Source: Acidobacteriota bacterium
Lineage (GTDB): Bacteria; Acidobacteriota; UBA4820; DSQY01
DNA length: 35,744 nt
Assembly: GCA_040752915.1 (NCBI GenBank)
Contig: JBFMHB010000033.1
Location: 1 to 35,744 of the forward strand
Reading direction: 5' to 3'
Positions 1-35,744 of this stretch are shown here, piece by piece; position 1 is the stretch's first letter; the number at the start of each line of letters is the position of its first letter. Below the pieces are notes generated by a model. That model saw only the letters and a program-made list of their open reading frames with translations, was not told where the DNA came from and ran no database searches. The position numbers and the translations under genes were made by a program.

Positions 1-35
1 TGATCTACATCGCGGGGGCGGTGGAACACCACTGA
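1..35 (+). CDS. atpB: ATP synthase F0 subunit a, C-terminal end (partial)
   Basis: Only the last ten codons are in the window. Read from base 3 they give IYIAGAVEHH and a TGA stop at 33-35. A hydrophobic tail with a YIxGA motif and a charged or His end is typical of the last helix of F0 subunit a, the stator channel protein that works against the c-ring. The call rests mainly on position: the gene ends 30 nt before atpE on the same strand, the usual atpB-atpE order. The rest of the gene lies outside the window. Confidence 0.7.
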   Translation, partial: IYIAGAVEHH

Positions 36-65
36 GGGAAGCTCGGTAGCGAAAGGAGGAAGTCC

Positions 66-383
66 GTGAGGAAAAAGGCACTGACGATTCTGGTGGGAGC
101 TCTGCTCCTGATGTTGGCGGCACCGGCCTTCGCCGAAGAGGGAGCCGCCGCGGCCGCCGGTATGGGCAAGGACACCCTGGGCGTTCTGGCCGCCGGCTTC
201 TCCATGGCCTTCGCCTCCGCCATCTGCGGCCTCGCGCAGGGCAAGGCGATCTCCGCGGCCTGCGAGGGTTCGGCCCGGAACCCCGGTATGGCCGACAAGC
301 TGCAGATCATGATGATCATCGGTCTGGCCTTCATCGAGTCCCTGGCCCTCTACACGATGGTGATCATCTTCGTGAAGATGTGA
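66..383 (+). CDS. atpE: ATP synthase F0 subunit c
   Basis: This is the rotor-ring proteolipid of the F1F0-ATP synthase in the inner membrane. The 105-aa product starts at GTG, 4 nt after an AAAGGAGGA ribosome-binding site at 53-61. Residues 1-23 look like a cleavable signal peptide ending AFA, as in other long c subunits. Two membrane helices follow, joined by the polar loop ARNPG (70-74). The ion-binding Glu91 lies in FIESLALY. Gln58 on helix 1 sits exactly 33 residues before Glu91, and Ser92 and Tyr96 follow. This Gln/Glu-Ser/Tyr set matches the Na+ ligands of the Ilyobacter c-ring, except that its Thr is Leu93 here (see findings). A perfect terminator hairpin follows at once, so the F1 genes are not co-transcribed downstream. 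Confidence 0.95.
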   Translation: MRKKALTILVGALLLMLAAPAFAEEGAAAAAGMGKDTLGVLAAGFSMAFASAICGLAQGKAISAACEGSARNPGMADKLQIMMIIGLAFIESLALYTMVIIFVKM

Positions 384-4846: not shown

Positions 4847-7071
4847 AGACGCTCCCGCTCGTCGGGCTCATGGCGGGTCTTTCTTGGCGGGCGGCCGCCG
4901 CCCCCGCGCCCGCCTCCCCTCCGGAACCGCTCCGAGTGCCCCGAATCGAGAGCCCCGTGAAGGTGGACGGGCTCCTCGATGAGCCAGCCTGGAGGCAAGC
5001 CCTCTCCATCCCCGTGAACACGGAGGTCCGTCCCGGGGAGAACATCGCCGCCCCCGTTGAGACTACGGTCTATCTGGCCTTCGGCCCCCGCCATCTGTAC
5101 GCGGCCTTTCTGGCCAAGGACCCGGATCCATCTCAGATCCTGGCCCGGTTCTCGGATCGGGACGACATCTACGACGACGACTGGGTGGCCCTGGTTCTGG
5201 ATACGTTCAACGATGCCCGAAGGGCCTACGATTTCGTCTGCAATCCCCTCGGAATTCAAGGGGACTCCATTGAGGTCACGGGAGGAGGGGAGAGCGGCGC
5301 CTGGGACGCCATCTGGGATTCGGCGGGCCGGATCACCCCCGAAGGGTACGTGGTGGAGATGTCCATACCGTTCAGCTCCCTGCGGTTTCAGCCGAGCCGG
5401 GAGGACCAGGTCTGGCGCTTTGACGCCGTGCGCAGTTACCCAAGGGGCGTGCGGCATCACATCGGCGCCTTCCCGAGAGATCGCGGAAACAACTGCTACC
5501 TGTGCCAAGCGATACTCATCCAAGGGTTCGCGGGGGCCGATCCGGGCCGCAACATGGAACTGGACCCGACCCTGACGGGGACTGTGTCGGAACGCAGGCA
5601 GGGCTTTCCGGACGGGCCCTTCGAGCGAACGGAGTCCAAGCTGGACCCGGGGATCACGGCGAGGTGGAGCCTCACCCCCAACGTAACCCTCAACGGGACG
5701 GTCAACCCGGACTTCTCCCAGGTGGAAGCGGACGCCGCCCAGCTCGACGTGAACACCCGATTCGCCCTCTACTACCCTGAGAAGAGGCCCTTTTTCCTGG
5801 AGGGAATGGACTACTTCCAACTGCCGATGGACGTGGTGTACACCCGGACCCTGGCCGATCCCGCGTGGGGGGCCAAGGTCTCCGGGAAGGTGGGCAAGGG
5901 GGTGCTGGGCGCCTTCTTCGTGCAGGATGAGACCACCAATCTTCTTCTTCCCTCGAGCCAGTTCTCCCGGGAAACCACCTTGGATGGGCCGAGCCAGGCG
6001 GGCGCGCTCCGGTACCGATACGACCTCGGAAGGTCTTCCACGGTGGGCCTCATCGCGACGGACCGGGCTGGGGAGGGGGGCTATTTCAACCGGATCCTCG
6101 GAGCCGACGCGGCGCTCCGGTTCACGCCCGAGCACACGCTGCGGGTCACGGCCGTAGGGTCCAAGACCCGATACCCGGAGAGGGTTGCGGAATCCCTCGG
6201 GGAGCCGTCGGGCGCCTTCCGGGGGGCGGCCTTCGACCTCATGTACATGCACGAGACCAGGGACTGGGAGCAGTACGTTCACGTCCAGCGGTTCTCGGAC
6301 GAGTTCCGATCCGACCTGGGCTTTGTACCCCAGGTCGGCTTCACCTTCCTGGATACGGGGATCCTCCGGAACTGGTACAGCGACGACCCCCGCCACTGGT
6401 TCAACGAGGCCCAGATGTGGGTGGGCTACGAACTCACTCGAGATTCGTCGGGCCGTCGTCTGCGGGAGGTGTACGGGGCATTCGTCGAGCACCACGGTCC
6501 TCGCCAGTCCAGGGTCTATGGACTTGTGTACTCGGGCCGCCAGTCTTACCGGGGCAAGGAATTTGGCCACGACAACCTGCGCCTGAGCGCGGGTTTCCAG
6601 CCGGCCGGGAACCTGATTCTGGAATGGAACTCCTTTTTCGGCGACGACGTGGATTACTCGGACGCGCGCCGGGCCAGGCGACTTCGGCTCAACCCCGAGG
6701 TCCGCATGACGTCGGGCAGGCGCTTCCGGCTGGCCCTCGGTCACGTCTACGAGCGGCTGTGGGTCCCCCAAGGCCTTCTCTATCGGGCCCACCTGACGGA
6801 ACTTCGCGCGGTCTACCAGATCGACGCCCGGGCCTTCCTGCGGGTCATCCTTCAGCGGGCGGACTATGCCTTTCGCGAGTCTCTCTACGCCGACCCGCCC
6901 GCTCCGCGCCACCGCGAACTCTTGAGCCAGATCTTGTTCAGCTACCGGGTCAACCCTCAAACGGGCCTGTACCTGGGTTATTCGGACCGGTATCTCGGGA
7001 CCGCCCAGGTCGGCCTGACCCAGACCGATCGGACGGTCTTCTTCAAAGTCGGCTACGCCTGGGTCATGTGA
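4843..7071 (+). CDS. DUF5916 outer-membrane protein with CBM9-like domain
   Basis: A 742-aa exported protein. GTG start overlaps the upstream stop by 3 nt; the signal peptide is short (hydrophobic LVGLMAGLSW, then an Ala/Pro-rich segment). Residues about 25-230 form a carbohydrate-binding-family-9-like beta domain: VDGLLDEPAW, then a DDIYDDDWVALVLDTF segment. The DUF5916 hallmark follows: VNPDFSQVEADAAQLDV and YYPEKRPFFLEGMDYF. The C-terminal half is rich in alternating aromatic strands and ends in FFKVGYAWVM, consistent with an outer-membrane beta-barrel. The family is common in Acidobacteriota and Bacteroidota, and its substrate is unknown. Transport or sensing of an oligosaccharide or peptide is only inference. 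Confidence 0.85.
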   Translation: MKTLPLVGLMAGLSWRAAAAPAPASPPEPLRVPRIESPVKVDGLLDEPAWRQALSIPVNTEVRPGENIAAPVETTVYLAFGPRHLYAAFLAKDPDPSQILARFSDRDDIYDDDWVALVLDTFNDARRAYDFVCNPLGIQGDSIEVTGGGESGAWDAIWDSAGRITPEGYVVEMSIPFSSLRFQPSREDQVWRFDAVRSYPRGVRHHIGAFPRDRGNNCYLCQAILIQGFAGADPGRNMELDPTLTGTVSERRQGFPDGPFERTESKLDPGITARWSLTPNVTLNGTVNPDFSQVEADAAQLDVNTRFALYYPEKRPFFLEGMDYFQLPMDVVYTRTLADPAWGAKVSGKVGKGVLGAFFVQDETTNLLLPSSQFSRETTLDGPSQAGALRYRYDLGRSSTVGLIATDRAGEGGYFNRILGADAALRFTPEHTLRVTAVGSKTRYPERVAESLGEPSGAFRGAAFDLMYMHETRDWEQYVHVQRFSDEFRSDLGFVPQVGFTFLDTGILRNWYSDDPRHWFNEAQMWVGYELTRDSSGRRLREVYGAFVEHHGPRQSRVYGLVYSGRQSYRGKEFGHDNLRLSAGFQPAGNLILEWNSFFGDDVDYSDARRARRLRLNPEVRMTSGRRFRLALGHVYERLWVPQGLLYRAHLTELRAVYQIDARAFLRVILQRADYAFRESLYADPPAPRHRELLSQILFSYRVNPQTGLYLGYSDRYLGTAQVGLTQTDRTVFFKVGYAWVM

Positions 7072-17942: not shown

Positions 17943-19088
17943 ATGGCTTTCTTCAACTATGCGACCATGCAGATGGCGGCCAAGATCGTCTATTACGGCC
18001 CCGGCCTCTGCGGAAAGACCACCAACCTGCAGTACATCTACAACAAGACCTCCCCGAAGAGCCGCGGCGAGATGGTCTCCCTCGAAACCGAATCGGACCG
18101 GACCCTTTTCTTCGACCTGCTTCCCCTCGAAGTGGGTGTCATCGCGGGATTTCGGACCCGGTTCCAGCTCTACACCGTTCCCGGGCAGGTCTTTTACGGC
18201 GAAACCCGGAGGATGGTGCTGAAGGGTGTGGACGGGGTGGTCTTCGTGGCCGACTCCCAGGTTCCGGTCAGGGAAGCCAACATCGAGAGCCTCAAGGACC
18301 TGGAGAAGAACTTGCACGAAATGGGGATTCACCTCAAGGACATCCCCATGGTCTTCCAGTACAACAAGAGGGACCTCTCCAACCTCCTGACGGTGGAGCA
18401 ACTGGAGGCGGACCTGAATCCCTTTCACCGTCCCTCCTTCGAAGCGAGCGCGGTGAACGGGGCCGGGGTGTTCGACACGCTCAAGGGAATCAGCCGCCTC
18501 ACCCTCCAGTCCCTCAAGGCCAAACTGGTCAGGCCCTCGGAGGCCCCTGTGGCCCAGCCCCGAGAGGTCCCCCCGCCCGCTCCGGCGCCCAGGCCTCCGG
18601 AGCCGGCGGTCGCCGCATCCCCCGCTTTGGATCGCGCCCCTTCCGTTCCCGTGCCCTCTGCGTCCCCGGTTCCAGAGGTCGAGTTCGCCACCCTGAAGAC
18701 GCGGGCCAGCGATTCGGAGCTGGCGCGCACCGCGCCCAAGATCAAGACCGTGGCCACGACCAGCCGCCGGATCTCGGTGGAATTGGATCGAATACGGGAC
18801 AGCCTCCTGACCCCGATTCTGACGGCCACCAAACCACGGGTCAGGGACTTGGCGCCCGCCCTCGATGAGCTGGCACGGGCGGGTCGAGGCACCTCGCCTG
18901 GAGACCTGGTTCTCGACGTGCCCGAGTCGGCCCTCCGGGGCTCCGGCGAGATCAGCCTGCTGATGGATTTCGGGAAAGACACGGGAGGAAAGCCCGTGTC
19001 GGTGACCGCCGTGGCCGCCCGAGAGCTCCTTCAGGAAACGCCCGATGGCTGGGTCCTCCGGGTCAAACTGGTGGCTAAAAAAGCTTGA
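17943..19088 (+). CDS. MglA-like small GTPase with a long C-terminal extension
   Basis: Residues 1-195 match bacterial Ras-like MglA GTPases, which set cell polarity and gliding or pilus switching. The P-loop GPGLCGKTT is at 19-27, TVPGQVFYGETRR (the MglA form of switch 2) at 78-90 and NKRD at 141-144. MglA itself is about 195 aa; this protein is 381 aa. A Pro/Ala-rich linker (about 198-240) leads to a further domain (about 250-381) with a helical segment RISVELDRIRDSLLTPIL and a beta-rich end. I do not recognise that domain. No mglB-like gene is in the window. It is the last gene of the ileS cluster and overlaps the merR stop by 14 nt. Confidence 0.85.
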   Translation: MAFFNYATMQMAAKIVYYGPGLCGKTTNLQYIYNKTSPKSRGEMVSLETESDRTLFFDLLPLEVGVIAGFRTRFQLYTVPGQVFYGETRRMVLKGVDGVVFVADSQVPVREANIESLKDLEKNLHEMGIHLKDIPMVFQYNKRDLSNLLTVEQLEADLNPFHRPSFEASAVNGAGVFDTLKGISRLTLQSLKAKLVRPSEAPVAQPREVPPPAPAPRPPEPAVAASPALDRAPSVPVPSASPVPEVEFATLKTRASDSELARTAPKIKTVATTSRRISVELDRIRDSLLTPILTATKPRVRDLAPALDELARAGRGTSPGDLVLDVPESALRGSGEISLLMDFGKDTGGKPVSVTAVAARELLQETPDGWVLRVKLVAKKA

Positions 19089-28671: not shown

Positions 28672-29937
28672 CTAGACGGCCCCGAGGATTTCCCGCGTCC
28701 GCCGCTTTCCGGCTTCGACGCCGGGCTGGCCGAAGGGGTCTACCTCGAAGAGGGCGGCGGCGTAAACTGTGGCGGCCATGAAGACGAAGAAGGCCTCGCC
28801 GAGGGAGGCGGCGTCGGCTCCGCCCAGGCCGTAACGCGCCACGGGAACCCCGGCTTCGCAAAGGGCCCGCGCCGTCCCCTCGCACAGGGCTCGTTGGACG
28901 GCGCCCACGTTGGCCGCGGCGGGAGGCAGGCCCGCGAAGGCGCGGGCCTCGGCGGAAAGGGGCGGCCCGGGGGAATCCTCGGAAAAGACCAGGAGCCACC
29001 GGGTGCGGGGGCCGTCCGAGAAGAGCTGTAGGAGGGAGTGCTGGTCCTCGCTCCCCAGGCACGCCAGGGGCGTCGGCCCGATGCGGTGGCCGTCCTCCCC
29101 GCCCACTTTGCGGCCCAGGGACTCGCCCCACAATTGCTGGATCCAACGGGCGAACAGGTAAGGGCGCTCCCCGTAGCCCCACAGGTCCACCTCCTTCAGG
29201 CCCTGGGCGTAGAACTGGACGAGAAGGAGGGCGAGGGCGAGGGCCGGGTTGCGGCTTCCCGTCAGGAGGAGAGCCTTGTCGGCGCCCAGCCGGGCGCCCG
29301 AGAGAACCGCCGAGGGGTCCACGCCGTCGAAGGCCGCCGGCAGAAGGCCCACGGGTGTCAGGACCGAATAGCGCCCGCCCACGGGGGAAGGGATGTCCAG
29401 GCGGGGGATGCCTTCCGCCTCGGCCCAGCGGTGGAGGGGGCCGCTCCCCGGGGAGGCCACGAGCACCGTCCGCTGTCTCCACCTCTGCGGGCAGGCCTTG
29501 CGCAGGGCCTCGAGGGCGAGGGCCGCGTTGACGAGGGTCTCCAGCGTCCCCCCCGACTTGGAAACCACGCACAGGGACGCCCGGTCCCACGGGACGGCCT
29601 GGAGGCGCGCGGAGAGGGAGGACGGGTCCAGCCCCTCGAGGAAGCGCACCCGGCTCCGAGGCCCGGCGCAGAGGACCCGCGCCCCCAGGGAGGAGCCACC
29701 GATGCCGGCGACCACCAGGACCTCGGCCTCCCGGCGCAGGAGGCGGGCCTGGTGGCGCACGGAGGCTTCGAGGGCGGCGTCTCCGGGGGTGTGGCGGAAG
29801 GGGTGCTCCTCGTGGCGCGTGAGGGCGAGGACCGTCTGGCGAAGGCCCTCCAGGGTCGGGCCCATGCGGTCGAAGAGGTCCGGCGCGAGGTGGGGCGCCG
29901 GGCCTTGAAGGATCCCCCCGAGGTCGAGTTCCGGCAT
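28672..29937 (-). CDS. pgi: Glucose-6-phosphate isomerase
   Basis: Interconverts glucose-6-phosphate and fructose-6-phosphate in glycolysis/gluconeogenesis. The two SIS domains show VVAGIGGSSLGARVL, VVSKSGGTLETLVNAALAL and SPVGGRYSVLTPVGLLPA. LGSEDQHSLLQLFSDGP and the C-terminal PFGQPGVEAGKRRT are also present. At 421 aa it belongs to the short bacterial class (about 450 aa), not the 550-aa E. coli type. ATG 29937 has no ribosome-binding site; a TTG 12 codons upstream is possible. A promoter whose -10 ends 6 nt before ATG 29937 supports the shorter form with a leaderless mRNA. Confidence 0.93.
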   Translation of the reverse strand: MPELDLGGILQGPAPHLAPDLFDRMGPTLEGLRQTVLALTRHEEHPFRHTPGDAALEASVRHQARLLRREAEVLVVAGIGGSSLGARVLCAGPRSRVRFLEGLDPSSLSARLQAVPWDRASLCVVSKSGGTLETLVNAALALEALRKACPQRWRQRTVLVASPGSGPLHRWAEAEGIPRLDIPSPVGGRYSVLTPVGLLPAAFDGVDPSAVLSGARLGADKALLLTGSRNPALALALLLVQFYAQGLKEVDLWGYGERPYLFARWIQQLWGESLGRKVGGEDGHRIGPTPLACLGSEDQHSLLQLFSDGPRTRWLLVFSEDSPGPPLSAEARAFAGLPPAAANVGAVQRALCEGTARALCEAGVPVARYGLGGADAASLGEAFFVFMAATVYAAALFEVDPFGQPGVEAGKRRTREILGAV

Positions 29938-29943
29938 GAAAGG

Positions 29944-29973
29944 AGTATGGACCCGTTGGCCCCTCCCCTTCAA
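29944..29973 (-). promoter_or_regulatory. Predicted promoter of pgi
   Basis: On the minus strand: TTGAAG (29973-29968), an 18-nt spacer and CATACT (29949-29944). The -10 ends 6 nt before ATG 29937 and no ribosome-binding site lies between. Confidence 0.5.
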
Positions 29974-29991
29974 GCGGGCGGGGGCGGCCCC

Positions 29992-30020
29992 TTGCTTTCA
30001 TGGTCTGAAAACCATAGACT
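29992..30020 (+). promoter_or_regulatory. Sigma-70 type promoter of the HMG-CoA synthase operon
   Basis: TTGCTT (29992-29997), a 17-nt spacer and TAGACT (30015-30020), 46 nt before ATG 30067. A short inverted repeat (ATGGT/ACCAT, about 29999-30015) lies in the spacer and might bind a regulator. Confidence 0.6.
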
Positions 30021-30066
30021 TTTCCCTCGTTTCGAGCCCAGGGGGATCCCGAAAAGGAGGAGCCGC

Positions 30067-31119
30067 ATGGTCGGAATCGTGGGATATGGGGCGTACATTC
30101 CCCGCTACCGGATCAAGGTGGAGGAGATCGCCAAGGTCTGGGGGGCGGACGCGCCCAGCTACAAGAAGGGCCTGATGCTGCGGGAGAAGTCCGTACCCGG
30201 CCCGGATCAGGACGTGATCACCATTGCCGTGGAAGCGGCGAAGAACGCCATCCGGCGGGCCGGCGTTTCGGGCGAAAGGGTGGGGGCCGTGTACGTGGGC
30301 TCCGAATCGCACCCGTACGCGGTGAAACCCACGGGCACGGCGGTGGCCGAAGTGATCGGCGCCGTGAGCGACTGCCACTGCGCGGACCTGGAGTTCGCCT
30401 GCAAGGCGGGCTCCGAGGGCATGTTCCTGGCCTACGGCCTCGTGAAATCCGGCGAGGTGGAGTACGCCCTGGGCATCGGCGCCGACACCTCCCAGGGCGC
30501 CCCCGGCGACGCGCTCGAGTACAGCGCGGCGGCCGGTGGCGCGGCTTTTCTCATGGGCACCCAGAACGTGGTGGCCACCGTGGACTGCCAGTACTCCTTC
30601 ATGACCGACACCCCCGACTTCTGGCGCCGGGAGTACATGCACTATCCCCGCCACGGCGGCCGATTCACGGGAGACATGGCCTACTTCAAGCACGTGCGCG
30701 GAGGAGTGGAAGGCATCCTCAAGAAGGCCAAGGCCAAGGCGAAGGACTTCAAGTACGCCGTTTTTCACCAGCCCAACGGCAAGTTCCCCATGAAGATGGC
30801 CAAGGACCTGGGCTTCACCGAAGAGCAGATGAAGACGGGCCTCCTCGTCCCCACCCTGGGCAACACCTACTCGGGCGCTTCGCCCCTGGGGCTGTCGGCC
30901 ATCCTGGACGAGGCCAGGCCCGGCGACCGCATCCTCATGTGCTCCTTCGGATCGGGCGCGGGCTCCGACGCCTTCGTCTTCACGTGCACCAAAAACCTCC
31001 CCAAGGTTCAGGGCAAGGCGAAGAAGACCCGGGACTACCTGGACAAGAACCCCTTCTACCTGGACTACGGCACGTATGTGAAGTTCCGCCGGAAGATCCG
31101 GAAGAACGTGGAGGATTGA
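30067..31119 (+). CDS. mvaS: Archaeal-type HMG-CoA synthase
   Basis: Condenses acetoacetyl-CoA with acetyl-CoA to 3-hydroxy-3-methylglutaryl-CoA. The 350-aa length and the [21 protein letters not shown] start match the archaeal family rather than the eukaryotic/Gram-positive enzymes (about 390-520 aa). The predicted catalytic residues are Cys112 ([11 protein letters not shown]), Glu80 ([12 protein letters not shown]) and His234 ([10 protein letters not shown]). ATG with AAAAGGAGGAG just upstream. The thiolase follows after 4 nt and the DUF35 gene overlaps that, the order known from archaea, where the three proteins form one channelling complex. An HMG-CoA reductase is not in the window. Confidence 0.93.
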
Positions 31120-33547: not shown

Positions 33548-34058
33548 GAAATCCTCCAATCCCATTGTAATTCAGCACTTTGGCCTCGGCAAGGCGGGCC
33601 GGGGACCCACATCCCGCGATGGGAAAGGAGAAGGTCTCCGAAGGTCGATACGGAAGTCCGGTTCCGTGAGCGACGGTCGTTTCCCACGAAAGGATTTGGG
33701 TGGCCTCCGAGCCCGGCTCCAAGCCGGGCGAGGAAGCCCCTAGGGTGAGGTGGGGCACCGGCGGGCTCTGCCCGCGGGGCGGGGAGGGGCCGGCCCTCCC
33801 CGTCCAAGAGACAAAGCCTTCCCTCCATGAACCCGAAAACCGTCCAAAACCACCCGTGTTTCAATCGCGGAATTTGGGGGAGAGGGAGGGGGATGCAGGG
33901 TCGGTCCGGGTTGGGTCCAGCCCGGCACCCGGATGTGGCCTCCCCTACGGACGCCGTCCTTGGGCGCGTCTATCTCCCAGCCCCTTGACAGGGCGGTGGG
34001 GGGGGGGGGGGTATCTTTGGTGCACGGTGTTTGCGAAACGCGAAAGAGGAGGGGGAGA
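33548..34058. other. Intergenic region with hairpins and a poly-G promoter
   Basis: About 510 bp with no gene I can support; the open frames across it are low-complexity Pro/Arg/Gly products. It holds a perfect 8-bp hairpin (GCCCGGCT 33711-33718 with 33722-33729), a second one (GGGGAGGG 33781-33788 with 33794-33801), and the poly-G promoter at its right end. Base composition becomes less G+C-rich from here to the window end. Confidence 0.6.
33985..34017 (+). promoter_or_regulatory. Promoter with a G14 tract in the spacer (candidate phase-variable)
   Basis: A perfect -35 TTGACA (33985-33990), then 7 nt and fourteen G (33998-34011), then TATCTT (34012-34017, 4 of 6 of the -10 consensus). The spacer is 21 nt as sequenced; ten G would give the optimal 17. 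The ATG of the secreted-protein gene lies 41 nt after the -10. Confidence 0.65.
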
Positions 34059-35069
34059 ATGAGGCTAAGTTTTCTGCGTGGTTTGAGAATGGGAGGGGCG
34101 GTTGGATTGGCTATTTGGATTTGCACGGCGGGGCAAGCCCAGAACCTGCCGACCGAACCGCTTCCGACGCCGCTCACGCCCTGGATTTGCACCGAGCCCA
34201 CCATTCCCAACTATACCAAATGCGCGGGCCATCCGGAGGTGGAACTCTTGACCTACGATTTCTACACGGGATGTTACGACATCCAAGACGGGCACTCCTT
34301 AAATTGTCAGAACACCTGGATCGAGTACTTCTCGACCGAGGGGGTGGCGCCTGAGATGATGGACTACTGGACGGGAGCCCACCTTCACTCGAGGATGGAA
34401 GGAAACCCCGTGAATAACCTGGGCGGCCTGCGGCTGGATTTCATGGATCGCCCGGCCCTGGCCACGGGGGAATGGGAGACGGAGTCGAGGACGCACTCCG
34501 GGGTTGTGCGGATCCCGGAGGTCTCGGGAGTGGTCCGCACGTTCATCTACTGGGTGGTACCGCGGGGGTATGTGTGCGTACCCGACGAGGTCTGGGAGCG
34601 GGATCCAGCGGATCGGACATGCCGCTCCTGCATGGGCACGCTTCTCGTGGAGGCGCACGTGGAGGGCCTGGAAGCCCTTCCATCAAGCGAATACTACGAT
34701 ACCGCCTCCGACCCGAAAGGCCATACGGCCGGCCAGCAATATTACGGCACGCCGCAGATGATCCGGGCGCTCACGGAGCTGGCCAAGCAGTATCGGGAAT
34801 GGTATGAAAAGGAAAATGGCAAGCTGGTCAAGGTCTCCTACAACGATCTCAGCCTCGTGTACGGCGGCATTTACGACATCGATGAGAACCGTCGCTGGGA
34901 TTGCCACCATTCCTTGCACCGGGTGGGCAATTCGGTGGATGTGAATACAACAGATCGCCCGTGGATGATAAAGACAAAAATGGATGAACTGGCAAAACAG
35001 CTTAATCTCAGCCAGTGCCACAAGAGTGGCACCAAGATCCACTACGAGCTTAATCCCTGCAATTGTTAA
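34059..35069 (+). CDS. Secreted protein with a metallopeptidase-like (LAS/M15-type) C-terminus
   Basis: A 336-aa exported protein. ATG 34059 follows AGAGGAGGGGGAG; the frame is open upstream but not coding. The signal peptide ends near AGQAQ (about 27). The middle part has many Cys and Trp/Tyr residues. The end carries LVYGGIYDIDENRRW and then HSLHRVGNSVDVN, with His287 and Asp294, and KIHYEL with His328. The HxxxxxxD...H pattern matches the zinc ligands of LAS peptidases (D-Ala-D-Ala carboxypeptidase, VanX, Hedgehog). Zinc binding and peptidase activity are inferred only; a non-catalytic binding role is possible. The next gene lies 11 nt downstream. Confidence 0.7.
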   Translation: MRLSFLRGLRMGGAVGLAIWICTAGQAQNLPTEPLPTPLTPWICTEPTIPNYTKCAGHPEVELLTYDFYTGCYDIQDGHSLNCQNTWIEYFSTEGVAPEMMDYWTGAHLHSRMEGNPVNNLGGLRLDFMDRPALATGEWETESRTHSGVVRIPEVSGVVRTFIYWVVPRGYVCVPDEVWERDPADRTCRSCMGTLLVEAHVEGLEALPSSEYYDTASDPKGHTAGQQYYGTPQMIRALTELAKQYREWYEKENGKLVKVSYNDLSLVYGGIYDIDENRRWDCHHSLHRVGNSVDVNTTDRPWMIKTKMDELAKQLNLSQCHKSGTKIHYELNPCNC

Positions 35070-35080
35070 TGAGGGGAAAG

Positions 35081-35744
35081 ATGAAGAGCAAATCGAAAGT
35101 GGTCTTTTTCGTGATCTTACTCTTCCAGGTGGCCAGTGGCGCGCAGAATGCTCCCCCTCTTCCCACCTTCGAAAGGCTTACGGTCCGTGGTTCCTGCACG
35201 GCCCTTGCCGGAGGGCTGTACAGACTTGAGTACCTTGTGACGAATCCGGCGGAAAACACCGTCGGTTTGTGGACGGTTGAATTGTCATTGGGGGGCGAGT
35301 TCGAGACGCTCTCTGACCCGTATGGGCCGCCTGGTTGGTCATGGACAAAATGGAGTCGGCAATACAATCCAGACCCGGTAGATAGCCCGGAAAAGCCGAG
35401 CTTTTCATGGAATATAACAGACTCGCAAATCGGAATGCACCCCGGCGATTTGATCCCGCCCATGGGCTTTTCCATCTCGGCTCCGCCCAGCATCCGCGAG
35501 GTTTGGATTAAGCCTTGGCTCGATCCTTGGTTCGAGGCGTACTTCGAGGCAACGGGCGAGGATGAGTTCCCAGGCTCTGTAGCGCTGGAACGCAGTTACA
35601 TCCGCAAGATCCCCACGCTGGCGCCCCTGCCCGTTCCCCCCGGGACCTTCGAACACTGGGACGTGTTTCTGTCGGACGTTGCGAAGGCGGGGGAATTGGG
35701 GTGGGTGTCGGATGCCGGGCTCCTTGCGGGGATCCGGGAAAACC
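35081..35744 (+). CDS. Secreted protein of unknown function (partial)
   Basis: An open frame from ATG 35081 to the window edge, 221 codons without a stop, preceded by GAGGGGAAAG. The signal peptide is MKSKSKVVFFVILLFQVASGA. The start of the mature part (GLYRLEYLVTNPAENTVGLWTVEL) looks like one beta sandwich; a Trp-rich middle follows (GWSWTKWSRQYNPDPVDSPE). The last residues before the edge (VFLSDVAKAGELGWVSDAGLLAGI) resemble a C-terminal helical FIMAH-like segment. The gene is 11 nt after the peptidase-like gene, so both are probably controlled by the poly-G promoter. Function unknown. Confidence 0.75.
   Translation, partial: MKSKSKVVFFVILLFQVASGAQNAPPLPTFERLTVRGSCTALAGGLYRLEYLVTNPAENTVGLWTVELSLGGEFETLSDPYGPPGWSWTKWSRQYNPDPVDSPEKPSFSWNITDSQIGMHPGDLIPPMGFSISAPPSIREVWIKPWLDPWFEAYFEATGEDEFPGSVALERSYIRKIPTLAPLPVPPGTFEHWDVFLSDVAKAGELGWVSDAGLLAGIREN

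Follow-up and report, generated by a model that had tools for sequence, protein, structure and literature searches.

Most studies of phase variation through promoter spacers concern host-adapted pathogens, and the primary work on the porA promoter is reportedly that of van der Ende in 1995. In the porA promoter of Neisseria meningitidis a poly-G tract lies between the -35 and -10 elements, with a spacing of about 17 nt giving the most transcription, and in that of Treponema pallidum tp0126, which encodes an OmpW homolog, poly-G again lies in the spacer and transcription is best when this totals 17 nt (PMC7864442). The length of a G tract also controls transcription of the T. pallidum outer-membrane genes tprE/G/J/L, and the promoter of opc, a surface protein of N. 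meningitidis, contains a poly-C homopolymer (PMC7864442).

A putative promoter of comparable architecture is found in the DNA analysed here, a stretch of 35,744 nucleotides (the window) that makes up essentially all of contig C33 of a 3.07-Mb Acidobacteriota MAG of 153 contigs; judged by the thiolase gene, its nearest named relatives (82-87% identical) are MAGs that bear the name Acidobacteria bacterium or Candidatus Aminicenantes. On the plus strand, the -35 element TTGACA (33985-33990), a hexamer of the type used throughout the genome, is followed by the non-repeat spacer segment GGGCGGT (33991-33997), by a run of fourteen G (33998-34011) that is the proposed site of slippage, and by the -10 element TATCTT (34012-34017), which fits the TANNNT of the genome's other promoters. 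The spacer formed by GGGCGGT and the G14 tract is exactly 21 nt, so that the description in the earlier note (TTGACA, seven nucleotides, fourteen G, TATCTT) is correct to the base. Its remark that no other homopolymer in the window is as long is also borne out, the next being runs of 8; from the decay of G and C run lengths, about 0.002 runs of at least 14 would be expected in the window. The pattern TTGACA-N7-G12 has a single match in all 3.07 Mb of the genome, at this promoter. The tract as assembled exceeds the length of about 8 or more that was taken as capable of slippage, and folding of the DNA of the promoter region gave nothing remarkable. Downstream, a Shine-Dalgarno-like GAGGAGGGG at 34046-34054 (plus strand; the paralog in contig C47 has the same type, GAGGGAGGGG) precedes the ATG at 34059 of a gene for a secreted protein, which lies 41 nt beyond TATCTT.

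The recognisable -35 and -10 elements flank the homopolymer as in the spacer promoters of the porA and tp0126 type. Like porA, the C33 promoter has its poly-G tract in the spacer and an exported product; unlike porA, it comes from an uncultured Acidobacteriota MAG, its products belong to an unnamed secreted family, and its switching is predicted. The tp0126 spacer also contains the poly-G within it, but belongs to a host-bound pathogen in which the effects of length are proven, and tp0126 has no known relation to the C33 genes. The tprE/G/J/L genes have a poly-G promoter tract as well, though that of tprL overlaps the -10 region, so that hexamer spacing is not what changes there. With opc the likeness is that of a surface-protein promoter containing a homopolymer, the C33 tract preceding genes for secreted proteins; the opc poly-C, however, includes the -35 region, and C tracts show no excess in Acidobacteriota genomes.

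We consider it likely that the site is a promoter of the sigma-70 type and that a slippage-prone G tract sets the spacing between its two elements, with transcription of the secreted-protein genes varying randomly between cells. During replication the tract would gain or lose Gs by slippage. With 10-11 G the spacer would measure 17-18 nt, RNA polymerase could contact both elements and the promoter would be on; the 14 G of the assembly, with their 21-nt spacer, would leave it weak or off, as would short tracts such as that of the C47 paralog, with a spacer of 15. Tract length would in this way set the distance between the hexamers and, through it, the level of transcription. That the tract might instead be translated, its length setting the reading frame of a product begun at an ATG at 33933, is scarcely credible: from 33933 to 34058 (plus strand) the frame is indeed open across G14 and joins that of the ATG at 34059 without a shift, but it is the latter ATG that has a strong Shine-Dalgarno sequence with a signal peptide directly behind it, both of which the upstream frame lacks, and in the C47 paralog a TAG stands directly after the G8 tract.

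The spacing preferred by this genome can be read from its other promoters. The pattern TTGACA-N13-21-TANNNT matches the genome at 90 places and its reversed control at 5, and this hexamer pair is genuinely in use. Among 84 distinct sites the spacer is 17 nt in 54, 18 nt in 21 and 16 nt in 3; the preferred spacing is 17-18 nt (75 of 84 promoters), and a spacer of 21 nt therefore predicts a weak or inactive promoter. The six remaining spacers comprise two of 19 nt and others of 14, 15, 15 and 21, and these last are exactly the four sites at which at least six G abut the -10 element (G10 at C30:36806, G8 in C47, G6 at C10:27774 and G14 in C33). Thus 78 of the 80 sites that do not have a tract fall at 16-18 nt, against none of the four that do (Fisher p = 8e-6, in a test defined, like the next, after the pattern had been seen). 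The same tendency, weaker, is present in genome G054, which holds six G-tract promoters: four of these six lie outside 16-18 nt, compared with 9 of 55 others (p = 0.016).

The tract recurs in front of homologous genes. Contig C47 (21517-23230) carries a paralogous two-gene locus behind a G8 promoter, TTGACA-AAGGACC-G8-TAGGCT, with a spacer of 15 nt before the homologous secreted gene, which comes first in the locus and is frameshifted in the assembly. In another family of the order, the homolog of genome G009 is preceded by TTGACA-AATCGT-G10-TATAAT (spacer 16) and that of G012 by TTGACA-AATTG-T15-ACAAT, whose -10 element is TACAAT and whose spacer is 19. Between genes and species, homologs of the first gene thus have tracts of G14, G8, G10 and T15. 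Apart from the tract and the two hexamers, these promoters are largely unrelated, their flanks having diverged, so that the tract has been retained through changes in its length and even in its base. A lack of the tract in relatives, which in the earlier note would have counted against its reading, was not borne out: the tract is present at C47, G009 and G012, although three of the homologs with a readable upstream region (in G009 contig C54, G010 and G005) have no long tract.

It is very unlikely that the promoter is simply a decayed one, its tract grown neutrally and its genes silent or transcribed from elsewhere. A spacer far from the optimum and the frameshifted first gene of the C47 paralog would fit decay; yet in C33 the gene is intact and neither the -35 nor the -10 element has been lost, and homologs that have diverged still have the tract.

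T tracts occupy promoter spacers more widely in G009-G012, relatives from another family (for example G012:C152:2273-2303 and G011:C134:271-297), where the T-tract spacer pattern gave 6 matches in the four genomes against 1 for the control. Two of these T-tract promoters have the leader TTAAATAGAAAGGAGGAGA in common; in G011 one with a closely similar leader stands before a different secreted protein.

Across the phylum, the pattern TTGACN1-12-G7-N0-2-TANNNT was sought in 149 Acidobacteriota genomes, with the reversed pattern as control, and gave 33 matches against 5. The spacers of these G-tract promoters vary widely, mostly between 12 and 20 nt. The symmetrical alternative, a C-tract version, showed no excess in the same 149 genomes (15 against 18 for its control). 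Such enrichment on the coding strand for G and not for C would fit a fixed structural element, for instance a G-quadruplex, or a stiff spacer rich in G, in the non-template strand, which would adjust promoter strength without switching it by changes in length, and GGGCGGT with G14 could form a quadruplex. A fixed element should, however, keep a functional spacing, and spacers here are 14, 15, 15 and 21 nt and scattered in the phylum; moreover the T tracts of G012 and G011 cannot form a quadruplex, and the known spacer tracts of porA and tp0126 act through their length (PMC7864442). We regard this explanation as unlikely and retain that of a length-switched spacer.

In four secreted-protein families the tract occurs at two or more genes or genomes, its length differing each time and its base once. 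Besides the family described above, these show G16 and G7 before proteins that are 69% identical, G9 and G11 (61%) and G9 and G10 (51%), in different genomes. When closer orthologs of another putatively tract-controlled gene were sought across a genus, in 41 genomes, only two species clearly had the gene, and both had the tract. A signal peptide is encoded downstream of 10 of the 15 promoters with G9 or longer, as against 7 of 50 generic ones (p = 2e-4); these counts come from a crude rule, and three others among the 15 qualify on visual inspection. Where the tract is shorter (G7-8), several of the matches stand before genes for cytosolic proteins. The tract architecture, then, accompanies secreted proteins. 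It is not exclusive to Acidobacteriota, since in a small control of 29 named genomes other phyla gave three matches, two in Riflebacteria and one in Zixibacteria.

The earlier note's reading of the site as a phase-variable promoter like that of porA is well supported on comparative grounds, by the tracts of paralog and homologs, the recurrence in the phylum and the link with secreted proteins, all of which point to switching as the probable behaviour. The chances seem about even that Acidobacteriota more generally keep homopolymer contingency promoters, built on G or, in AT-rich lineages, on T, together with matching tracts in coding regions, that randomly diversify the secretome; this would amount to phase variation outside the host-pathogen setting. 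The Acidobacteriota are a large phylum, mostly uncultured and not known as a source of pathogens. If true, the proposal would extend bet-hedging by hypermutable promoters to uncultured bacteria beyond that setting, possibly -- and this is speculation -- against phages, predators or competitors. The titles and abstracts of the literature on phase variation in Acidobacteria or Acidobacteriota yield only a few papers, in which the subject looks incidental. The mechanism is already known; its recurrence in Acidobacteriota appears to be undescribed in the literature that could be searched.

The claim that two secreted proteins are encoded downstream agrees with inspection of the sequence, both genes beginning with signal peptides. 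The first gene (34059-35069, plus strand) is intact and encodes, behind the strong Shine-Dalgarno sequence, a secreted protein of 336 aa, with its signal peptide at the start. It gave no convincing match in Pfam, PHROG or PDB, the named genomes scanned with it held no relatives, and its AlphaFold model is poor (pLDDT 50). The homologs have the motifs HR.G.S.D.N and IH.E in common, and HRVGNSVD and IHYE of the first protein are largely conserved among them; judged by eye, this HxxGxxxD and HxE combination suggests a zinc peptidase of the M15 type. The second gene (35081-35743, plus strand), with a signal peptide at its start, is truncated by the end of the contig; its counterpart in genome G005 encodes a large surface protein of the CARDB/Ig type. 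The contig probably stops here because its last 144 nt (35600-35743, plus strand; 99% identical by sequence comparison) also end the paralogous contig C47, and the assembly of C33 probably broke at this common repeat. Elsewhere in the window, a 693-aa open frame at 29038-31119 has no match over its first 343 residues and matches HMG-CoA synthase over residues 344-688; it may be a fusion or have had its start set too early.

A false or overlong G run, from the poly-G of two-colour chemistry or from homopolymer errors in sequencing or assembly, would also produce long tracts, and the collection does contain suspicious ones. Contig C10 ends in 68 G, the G15 of contig C22 lies eight bases from a contig end, and in genome G002 copies with G14 and G20 flank an N10 gap. 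The C33 tract, in contrast, is internal to its contig, between unique flanks on either side, and tracts are found at the same promoter position in the paralog and in the assemblies of other species; an artefact would not select promoter spacers. We judge an artefactual origin very improbable. Poly-G is nevertheless hard to assemble, as the 68 G of C10 and the G002 gap illustrate, and exact tract lengths, including that of G14, are therefore uncertain. The C10 run (positions 1-68, minus strand, at the contig end) resembles the poly-G artefact of two-colour chemistry. The G002 site (C64:513-650) has the same G-tract and -10 arrangement on both sides of its scaffold gap, which could be a fault of assembly or genuine length variation in a single promoter.

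The genome has ten places with G10 or longer, including the C10 run; the other nine are the promoter spacers of C33 and C30, tracts in C51 and C74, a coding tract in C9, and tracts in C20, C22, C39 and C67. A tract just after a signal peptide, with a broken frame, is the usual anatomy of translational phase variation. In contig C51 a C12 tract (18320-18331, coding strand) directly follows the signal peptide of the secreted protein MASIRWGLCVLALGWVAGLGSPSRAQS, and the reading frame is broken at the tract and resumes one frame over; on its sequence, this is a candidate for translational phase variation. In contig C74 a G11 tract (6266-6276) lies a short way beyond the signal peptide of a further secreted protein, MAWRTGAVVWFLGLMGLASRAFA, where the frame is again broken and resumes one frame over. 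Behind both the G15 tract of C22 (43506-43520) and a G9 tract in G004 (C130:22884) lies a very short ORF, 25-26 aa in length (MLSFTIAALVFTVCSPVMGAIWGTGA and MCTILFLITVLVCSPSGGVVWGTTS), and these resemble lone signal peptides ending in WGTxx.
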